Below, piece after piece: positions 34,745-41,701 of a DNA stretch of 64,000 nucleotides. How positions within the stretch are numbered: the stretch's first letter is position 1; every line of letters starts with the position of its first letter. The position numbers were made by a program, and so were the translations under genes. Location of the stretch: positions 1 through 64,000 of the forward strand of contig NZ_JABDHQ010000008.1 of NCBI RefSeq assembly GCF_018709685.1, given 5' to 3'. This stretch comes from Akkermansia muciniphila (lineage in GTDB: Bacteria > Verrucomicrobiota > Verrucomicrobiia > Verrucomicrobiales > Akkermansiaceae). The notes beneath the pieces are model-generated. The model did not search any database. It was given only the letters and a program-made list of their open reading frames with translations, and was not told the origin of the DNA.

Positions 34745-34850
34745 TGGGCCGCCGGGAACCCGTGGAGGCACGACTGGCAAACCCCGCCAGGACCGAGAGG
34801 TAGCAACGGTAGCTTGTTCGTGTTTGCCGCGTCCGTTCCCGGCGGTATTT
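34745..34850 (+). ncRNA. ffs: Signal recognition particle RNA (4.5S type)
   Basis: The terminal arms ccgccgggaac (34749-34759) and gttcccggcgg (34835-34845) pair perfectly over 11 bp. The apex has the SRP hallmark ccaggaccgagaggtagcaac, matching the AGG-CCG-GAGGxAGCA core that binds Ffh. The length of roughly 100 nt is that of the short bacterial form without the Alu part. A U-rich stretch (tattttatt) follows. It sits between the coiled-coil gene and folC. Confidence 0.92.
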
Positions 34851-38782: not shown

Positions 38783-41053
38783 ATGAATACTCCCCTGAAA
38801 GACCGCCTGATCCGCCACATGGAGGACAGACATTACGAACCCCAGAGCAAGTCTGAACTGGCACGCTCCCTGAATGTGGATTCACGGCAGAAACAGGACT
38901 TCCGCGCCCTGGTGGACCAGCTGGAAGAGGAAGGCAGGCTCGTGCGCCTGCAAAAAGGCAGGTACGCCCTGAAGCGGGAGCGCCGGGACCTGGTGCACGG
39001 CATGATCCGCATCCTGCGCTCCGGGAAGATTCTTTTTATCCCGAGGAAGGAAGACCCCGCCGCCGCGGCCATGGGCTGGGACCTGGAGGCCATTCCGGAA
39101 CTGGAACTGAAGCCCAACCACCTGGGGACCGCCCTGGACGGGGACCGGGTGGCCGCCCACGTGGAACGCAAGGCGTCCAAAGGACGCCGGAACGACCGCC
39201 GGGACCTCTTCTCCAGGCCGGACACGGGCATGAAAGCCCGCGTGGAGGAAGTGACGGAACGCGCCCGCTCACGCTGGCTGGGGGTTTTCCGCGCCGGAAA
39301 AAATAAATTGGGGCGCGTGCTGGGGGACGGCATCGGCTCCCCGGAATATATTGACCTGGTGGAAAAACCCGCCATGGAGGTGCTCCCGGGCCAACTGGTT
39401 TCCGTGGAGCCCGTGTCCCGCGGGGAGGAAAAGAAGGCCCCGCGCGGGAAAATCGTGGAGGTGCTGGGTTACCCGGACGATCCCCACGTGGACATGGAAT
39501 CCGTCATCAGGAAGTATGACCTGCCCGTGGAATTCCCCGCCGCCGTGCTCCGGGAACTGGAAAACCTGCCCAAAGACCCTTCCTCCGGAGAGCTTGCCCG
39601 CCGGGAGGACTGGACGGACCGCACCGTCATCACCATTGACCCCGCGAGCGCCAAGGACTTTGACGACGCCATTTCCATCAAGGCCACCCCGCAAGGCTGG
39701 ACGCTGGCCGTCCACATTGCGGACGTCTCCCACTTCGTGAAGCGCGGCAGCGCGCTGGATGAGGAAGCCCTGCGCCGCGGCAATTCCACCTACCTGCCGG
39801 ACCGCGTTCTTCCCATGCTGCCTCCGCGCCTTTCCGACGATTTGTGCAGCCTGCGTCCGGACGTCGTCCGCCTGACGAAGGTGTGCGAAATGAAGTTTGA
39901 CAAAAAGGGCAAGCTGCTCGGCGCCCGCTTTGCGGACGCCTTTATCCGCAGCAAGGCGCGCCTGACCTACCAGGAAGCCTTCACCATGATGAAGGGGCAT
40001 GACAAGGGGGAAATTCCCTCCATGGTCCGGGAGGCCTGGAAGCTCGCCTCCATCCTGCGCCGCAACCGCTATGCCAAGGGAGCCCTGGACCTGGACTTTC
40101 CGGAAGTGCGCGCCGTCATGGACAAGGACGGCCGCGTGACGGACATTATCACGGAAGAGTATGACGAGAGCCACCAGCTTATTGAAGAATGCATGCTGGC
40201 GGCCAATGGAGCCGTGGCCCTGACGCTGAAGAACAAGAACCGCCCCACCATCTACCGCGTCCATGAAGAGCCGGACTCCGCCAAACTGTTCGAGTTCGGC
40301 CAGCTATGCAAACTTTACGGGCATCCCGTCCACGACATCAGCCAGCGGCAGTACCTGAATGAACTGATGAAGTCCATCAAGGGTTCCCCGGATGAACAGC
40401 TCCTCAAGCTGGCTCTGCTGAAAAGCCTGATGCGCGCCAGGTACGACACGGAACCCCTGGGCCATTACGGCCTGGCCACCCCCAATTACTGCCATTTCAC
40501 CAGCCCTATCCGCCGTTACGCGGACCTGGTGGTGCACCGTTCCCTGGACCCCCTGCTGGCCAATCCCCCCAAGGGAGCCAAAGGCCCCGGCAGCGTGAGC
40601 AGGCTGGAAGAGGATGCGGAGCATATTTCAGAAACGGAGCGCACCTCCGCCAGCGCGGAAAAGGACGCCAACCGCATGAAGCTCTTTGAATGGCTGGAAG
40701 GCCAGTGCTTCGCGGACCATCCGGAGGTGCACGAGGCGCTGATTACGGAAACGCGCCACTTCGGCGTGATGCTGGAAATCCCCCGCCTCCAGGTCAAGGG
40801 ACTGATCAAGCCCGACCAGCTTCCCGGCGGCCGCTGGGTGTATGAGGCCTTTGCCAACCGCTGGAAGAACGATCACGGCTCCGTGCTGTGCGCGGGGCTG
40901 CGCATTCCCGTCATCCCCGTGAAGGTGGACCGTGACCAGCAATGGGCGGATTTCACCATTGCCTCCCGGGAGAAACGCGGAGAGCCGGAAAAAACGGCCG
41001 CAACCGGAAAAAGGGGGAAACGCTCCAACGGGCGCAGGCGCCGCGCCCGCTAG
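38783..41053 (+). CDS. rnr: Ribonuclease R
   Basis: A 756-residue 3'-5' exoribonuclease starting at ATG 38783 (MNTPLKDRLIRHMEDRHYEP). It has an N-terminal winged-helix/cold-shock part, the RNB catalytic core with DPASAKDFDDAISI, GNSTYLPDRVLPMLPP and YCHFTSPIRRYADLVVHR, a C-terminal S1 domain (HFGVMLEIPRLQVKGLI) and a basic tail rich in Arg/Lys. It degrades structured RNA in quality control. A hairpin with a U-tract ends it. Confidence 0.95.
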   Translation: MNTPLKDRLIRHMEDRHYEPQSKSELARSLNVDSRQKQDFRALVDQLEEEGRLVRLQKGRYALKRERRDLVHGMIRILRSGKILFIPRKEDPAAAAMGWDLEAIPELELKPNHLGTALDGDRVAAHVERKASKGRRNDRRDLFSRPDTGMKARVEEVTERARSRWLGVFRAGKNKLGRVLGDGIGSPEYIDLVEKPAMEVLPGQLVSVEPVSRGEEKKAPRGKIVEVLGYPDDPHVDMESVIRKYDLPVEFPAAVLRELENLPKDPSSGELARREDWTDRTVITIDPASAKDFDDAISIKATPQGWTLAVHIADVSHFVKRGSALDEEALRRGNSTYLPDRVLPMLPPRLSDDLCSLRPDVVRLTKVCEMKFDKKGKLLGARFADAFIRSKARLTYQEAFTMMKGHDKGEIPSMVREAWKLASILRRNRYAKGALDLDFPEVRAVMDKDGRVTDIITEEYDESHQLIEECMLAANGAVALTLKNKNRPTIYRVHEEPDSAKLFEFGQLCKLYGHPVHDISQRQYLNELMKSIKGSPDEQLLKLALLKSLMRARYDTEPLGHYGLATPNYCHFTSPIRRYADLVVHRSLDPLLANPPKGAKGPGSVSRLEEDAEHISETERTSASAEKDANRMKLFEWLEGQCFADHPEVHEALITETRHFGVMLEIPRLQVKGLIKPDQLPGGRWVYEAFANRWKNDHGSVLCAGLRIPVIPVKVDRDQQWADFTIASREKRGEPEKTAATGKRGKRSNGRRRRAR

Positions 41054-41116
41054 GCGCGCAGGGAGGGACGCCGCGGAAACGCGGCGGAACGGGCATTAAC
41101 CGCGGTTCTCCTTGCA

Positions 41117-41140
41117 GGAGAATCATCTCCGAACTTTTTT
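41117..41140 (+). terminator. Intrinsic terminator of rnr
   Basis: Stem ggaga/tctcc with loop atca (41117-41130) followed by gaac and tttttt (41135-41140). It lies 64 nt after the rnr stop. Confidence 0.55.
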
Positions 41141-41153
41141 ACTAAAAATTTTC

Positions 41154-41183
41154 TTGAAGTAAATTGCCCTTTTCGTGTATAGA
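41154..41183 (+). promoter_or_regulatory. Predicted promoter of the RNA unit
   Basis: TTGAAG (41154-41159), 18 bp spacer and TATAGA (41178-41183). The predicted start is near 41190, inside the region and well before the cupin gene. Confidence 0.5.
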
Positions 41184-41189
41184 CTGGTT

Positions 41190-41307
41190 GCTGTTTACTT
41201 GTGAAACCGACCCCACGCCTATGAAACCAGGACGTTGAACCCGTAAGTAAGCGCGATATGAATGCTGAATGCCAAGGTCCGCTCCCGGGTCCGGAGCGGG
41301 CCTTTTT
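41190..41307 (+). ncRNA. Candidate small RNA or regulatory leader (unidentified)
   Basis: From the predicted start to the terminator is about 118 nt. Visible pairing includes ttactt with aagtaa, and ggac (41230-41233) with gtcc (41277-41280), which would compete with the terminator stem. A direct repeat gaatgc occurs twice near 41260. It matches no RNA family I can name with confidence. It is either a stand-alone small RNA or an attenuator/riboswitch-like leader for the cupin gene 56 bp downstream. Confidence 0.4.
41276..41307 (+). terminator. Strong intrinsic terminator upstream of cupin gene
   Basis: ggtccgctcc and ggagcgggcc form a 10 bp stem (one G-U pair) with loop cgggtcc, followed by ttttt. 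It is the best intrinsic terminator in the window. Confidence 0.75.
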
Positions 41308-41362
41308 CCCGGAAGCCTGTCATGACGGAAACGGCAGGGGGAAATGAGGGTGTCCAACCTGC

Positions 41363-41701
41363 ATGACAGCCATCCAGCACATCCCCGAACGGGCGCCTTT
41401 TACTTACGCGGACCTGATTGAATACCGCGACGGACAAATCACCAGCCTGGCCCTGGTGCGCTCCAAAGGCGTCAACATGACCATTCTGGCCTTTGACGAC
41501 GAGCAGCTCCTCCCCACCCACCAGACGCCCGGCCCCGCCCTGGTGCAGGTACTGGACGGCACGGCCTTTTTTACCGTGGGCAATGATTCCATGAACGTGC
41601 CGCAGGGCCAGACCCTGATGATCCCCGCAGGCGTGCCCCATTCCGTGATCGCCCAGGGACGGTTCAAGATGCTGGTCACGTCCATCCTCCCGCTGGACTG
41701 A
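41363..41701 (+). CDS. Small cupin-domain protein
   Basis: A 112-residue single-domain cupin. The barrel motifs are partial: HQTPGPALVQVLDGTAFFTVG for motif 1 and IPAGVPHSVIAQG for motif 2, with one histidine in each, so a metal site is possible. Such proteins bind small ligands or act as isomerases or oxygen sensors. It follows a leader with a strong terminator, which implies conditional expression. Confidence 0.85.
   Translation: MTAIQHIPERAPFTYADLIEYRDGQITSLALVRSKGVNMTILAFDDEQLLPTHQTPGPALVQVLDGTAFFTVGNDSMNVPQGQTLMIPAGVPHSVIAQGRFKMLVTSILPLD

Follow-up and report, generated by a model that had tools for sequence, protein, structure and literature searches.

The conservation pattern between rnr and the downstream cupin gene of Akkermansia muciniphila indicates that the RNA unit predicted in this gap is real. 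On balance, the unit is probably a stand-alone gene for a small RNA, found in the Akkermansia clade to which A. muciniphila belongs, with a likely role in trans. Transcription would start near 41190, from a sigma70-like promoter of its own whose signals are conserved, and would stop at a terminator (41274-41307) that is strong and constitutive. In the predicted fold of the transcript, a 5′ stem, P1, closes around a small hairpin and is followed by single-stranded UGAAUGCUGAAUGCC and then by the terminator hairpin, whose loop GGGUC may kiss the upstream GACCC. Its exposed invariant segments would pair with mRNAs, or the RNA would bind a protein, neither Hfq nor CsrA being needed for this action. 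Read-through into the cupin gene would be possible without being the main purpose. Promoter-like boxes, a structured core, a terminator and invariant single-stranded bases are the parts of which a small RNA gene is made, and the invariant unpaired bases appear to fit a base-pairing or protein-binding RNA.

In the window (the whole 64,000-nucleotide stretch of DNA analysed), rnr, which encodes an RNB domain, ends at 41053, and a 112-aa cupin gene (Pfam Cupin_2) occupies 41363-41701. The gap between them houses the RNA unit, and all three lie on the plus strand. Relatives of the cupin in the PDB (3rns, 1yhf and 2ozj) are uncharacterised cupins. A gene listed as 'Cupin', AMUC_RS04320, possibly the rnr-adjacent one, is differentially expressed in A. 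muciniphila according to an ox-bile transcriptome (PMC7671984). A close relative of the cupin adjoins rnr in 12 of the 76 genomes examined from the genus Akkermansia, taken in its GTDB sense, and the RNA is present between the two genes in every one of the 12 cupin-bearing species. Strand, order and the distance from terminator to cupin ATG are near-constant across them, at 55-56 bp, in keeping with the 56 bp given by the initial annotation. Records sharing the element include the names Akkermansia muciniphila and Akkermansia sp.

The aligned core, a predicted small RNA of about 117 nt, spans 41190-41307 on the plus strand, and a covariance model built on it scores 143-155 bits in the 12 species. 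Conservation in this core greatly exceeds that of the flanking sequence. Compared with the most distant clade (L040), the window is 82% identical in the pre-terminator part and 88% in the terminator, against 61% and 51% at the third codon positions of rnr and cupin, 32% in the upstream spacer and 73% in the cupin leader. About 90 nt between the promoter-like boxes and the terminator are densely invariant. The single-sequence fold of the window RNA is only mildly better than that of shuffled sequences (z -1.7), so the case for the RNA rests on conservation and not on fold energy.

Upstream of the core, a -35-like hexamer TTGAAG (41154-41159) and a -10-like hexamer TATAGA (41178-41183) lie on the plus strand, separated by 18 bp in the alignment of 12 species. 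TTGAA and TATA are invariant in all 12, while the bases flanking the boxes diverge to about 41% identity, a pattern that strengthens the sigma70-like promoter proposed initially. The promoter call is a consensus match only, and the spacing of its boxes would place the transcription start near the first base of the core. Transcription start sites of A. muciniphila have been reported, with Cappable-seq reads (PMC4782308). The intrinsic terminator that had been assigned to rnr did not hold up; it is a weak 5-bp hairpin, of which chance alone would produce about 0.9 over the length scanned, and relatives do not retain it.

Within the core, the 5′ arm of P1, GCUGUUUAC (41190-41198), pairs with its 3′ arm, GUAAGUAAGC (41243-41252), which carries one bulged base; the arms are paired in 100% of cells, and changes in P1 are solely to or from G-U. 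Between the arms, the small hairpin P2, CGCCUAUGAANNCAGGACG (41216-41234), presents a nearly invariant AUGAANNC in its loop. A mostly unpaired stretch, UGAAUGCUGAAUGCCAAGG (41259-41277), sits directly before and into the terminator and is invariant at 19 of 19 columns in 12 species. In the consensus fold, UGAAUGCUGAAUGCC is likewise invariant and unpaired on the 5′ side of the terminator. The stretch UGAAUGCUGAAUGCCAAGG is a candidate target-pairing region. When a 15-nt complement of the unpaired stretch was sought, exact or with one mismatch, no close match common to the species was found, and pyrD was rejected as a target since the matches there sit on the wrong strand.

The intrinsic terminator (41274-41307, plus strand) comprises a 12-bp stem and 7-nt loop, the hairpin running from 41274 to 41304, and then a T run, transcribed as U. 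Stem and U run are kept in all species, and the terminator is strong, as initially annotated; its mean pairing probability is 0.93-0.98, and the pair at columns 95/117 varies among U-A, U-G and C-G. The loop sequence GGGUC (41287-41291) is invariant, in contrast to the variable loop base on either side of it. It is complementary to GACC(C/U) at 41209-41213, which is invariant save for its last base, where C or U retains the pairing; two-sided change is absent. A kissing interaction between the two is thus possible, as suggested by their complementarity and by the invariance of the inner loop against varying outer bases. Such complementarity alone would arise by chance roughly one time in ten, an estimate for a pentamer in about 90 nt.

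All 31 pairs, the proposed kiss included, form in each of the ten distinct sequences. Compensatory change on both sides occurs at one pair only, and 98 of 500 shuffles match this, so the covariation is not significant. This weakness reflects sequences that hardly vary; the data agree with the stems, which are kept in every sequence, but covariation does not prove them.

A competing pairing of ggac with gtcc of the terminator, on which a switch had been proposed, is broken in the L040-L042 clade, where the sequences read GGAU and, in the terminator arm, GGCCCG. With the terminator helix forbidden in folding, its arms pair with nothing else in any of ten sequences, and the resulting folds are about 22-26 kcal/mol worse. 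An antiterminator is therefore not predicted, at least by the simple folding programs used, which are blind to ligands, proteins and pseudoknots. The plan of a riboswitch or attenuator thus lacks its key part. Of the two designs offered by the initial annotation, the stand-alone small RNA is favoured, whereas the switch has neither a conserved antiterminator nor relatives outside the genus.

Searches of Rfam 15 at gathering and relaxed thresholds returned no family match, the best relaxed E-value being about 3. The claim that the RNA belongs to no named family thus stands, for an element that is nonetheless conserved. Thr_leader (RF00506), the best-scoring 3′ match of the relaxed search, reached 14.6 bits against a gathering threshold of 55 (E = 3), covers only the terminator-like 3′ part and was dismissed as chance. 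Across 240 genomes of the order, the covariance model found only terminator-like matches elsewhere, and in a more careful search of 16 closer outgroups the weak matches aligned mainly to terminators. Weak matches in further species, whether of the same GTDB genus or of other genera, are mainly terminator alignments and are not counted as relatives. In outgroups L058-L075 of the same GTDB genus, the sequence 3′ of rnr differs and carries no such element. A pattern scan of named GTDB genomes gave 15 stretches, four of which match the model strongly over its full length, all from Akkermansia or Akkermansiaceae, and the element was absent from the viral contigs and the phage and plasmid collections searched. 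This distribution suggests that the RNA arose within one clade or that its counterparts elsewhere have diverged too far to be recognised. The open-access literature searched yielded no description of a regulatory small RNA at this Akkermansia site. By its conservation, the element appears to be a real lineage-specific RNA gene, previously undescribed as far as the searched literature and Rfam show.

Outside the RNA, a leader hairpin (41319-41367, plus strand) covers the cupin start codon and is paired in all eight sequences folded. It joins GUCAUG (41319-41324) to (C/U)AUGAC (41362-41367) and includes a G-C/G-U change; GUCAUG is invariant, and its complementarity to the start-codon region is present in all 12 species. 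The sequence suggests that this hairpin could bury the start codon or, alternatively, that a separate cupin promoter could use TGTCAT as a weak -10 box. No clear promoter of this kind was seen in the 55-bp gap between terminator and cupin, where 45% of the leader bases are invariant. Within the RNA, a five-codon ORF, AUGAANNCAGGAYGYUGA (41221-41238), has its start and stop codons preserved in every species, and no ribosome binding site was seen for it. Peptide coding was rejected, since this ORF and another that crosses the terminator either are invariant at every codon position or change non-synonymously, so that a coding signature is absent.

Among protein partners, Hfq and CsrA were not found in the genome, and an RNA dependent on either was therefore discarded. 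A 6S RNA candidate of 186 nt was detected at another site (G000:C45:5970-6155, L076), scoring 35.7 bits against a gathering threshold of 46.4 (E 1.4e-5), and the 6S RNA of Akkermansia may have diverged enough to escape Rfam annotation. The RNA studied here is thus not simply a missing 6S: the locus has no Rfam match to 6S (RF00013), and the genome's own candidate lies elsewhere.

The main rival, which we consider possible yet clearly on the less probable side, is a cis-acting cupin leader, in which the promoter is shared and the terminator, perhaps with the start-codon hairpin, sets the amount of cupin. Conditional read-through would then depend on a protein, on the short upstream ORF being translated, or on some other factor. 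The cupin lies directly 3′ in all 12 species, with strand and order unchanged and spacing nearly constant, and with no convincing promoter of its own; this counts against a stand-alone RNA and also fits a leader, as do the partly invariant leader bases, the retained hairpin over the start codon and the preserved start and stop of the five-codon ORF. The constant neighbourhood nevertheless carries little weight: the 12 species are close relatives within a single clade, which records the association once in evolution. A leader is further disfavoured by the missing conserved antiterminator, by terminator-forbidden folds that reveal no competitor, by the loss of the ggac/gtcc pairing, and by an ORF that lacks a visible ribosome binding site and is, for the most part, invariant at all codon positions. 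A related but unlikely proposal is a new structured RNA class of mucus-dwelling Akkermansia, in which GACCC docks in the terminator loop and a ligand or protein tunes termination, and hence cupin.

A new riboswitch class, whose core would bind a small ligand and switch with the help of a GACCC/GGGUC pseudoknot formed with the terminator loop, is quite unlikely. It would account for the highly conserved core, the candidate pseudoknot kept in all sequences and the gene directly 3′. Riboswitch classes, however, usually span many lineages, whereas the searches found no relatives outside one genus; the adjoining gene is no known biosynthesis or transport gene, and no alternative fold is predicted. 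Equally improbable is an RNA whose role is to sequester or guide a protein, like 6S, CsrB or Y RNA, instead of pairing with mRNAs. Its structured, terminated form, its invariant unpaired segments and a genome without Hfq suit this role, but the lack of a 6S match, the separate 6S candidate and the absence of CsrA do not, and the sequence suggests no protein partner. Finally, conserved regulatory DNA sites combined with a strong rnr terminator could dispense with RNA function altogether, as the weak stem covariation and the modest z-score would allow. The dense invariance of about 90 nt between boxes and terminator, in transcript-like order and orientation, makes this very improbable.

Among known systems, the element resembles intergenic trans-acting small RNAs, such as the Hfq-independent ones of Gram-positive bacteria, in its predicted promoter, length (about 100-150 nt in that group), terminator and conserved unpaired stretch, but it is confined to Akkermansia, with no sequence or structure relative found. 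Like 6S RNA, it is small and structured and has a closing stem, although it lacks the large central bubble. With terminator-platform attenuators and riboswitches it shares a promoter, a structured leader and a terminator followed by a gene, in contrast to which it has no conserved antiterminator and no relatives beyond the genus. For a bacterium as prominent in the human gut as Akkermansia, with neither Hfq nor CsrA detected in this genome, an RNA gene so strongly conserved throughout the A. muciniphila clade offers a concrete entry to the study of RNA regulation. Elsewhere in the window, positions 34752-34845 hold an ordinary 4.5S-type RNA gene, the bacterial small SRP RNA (RF00169, 53 bits).
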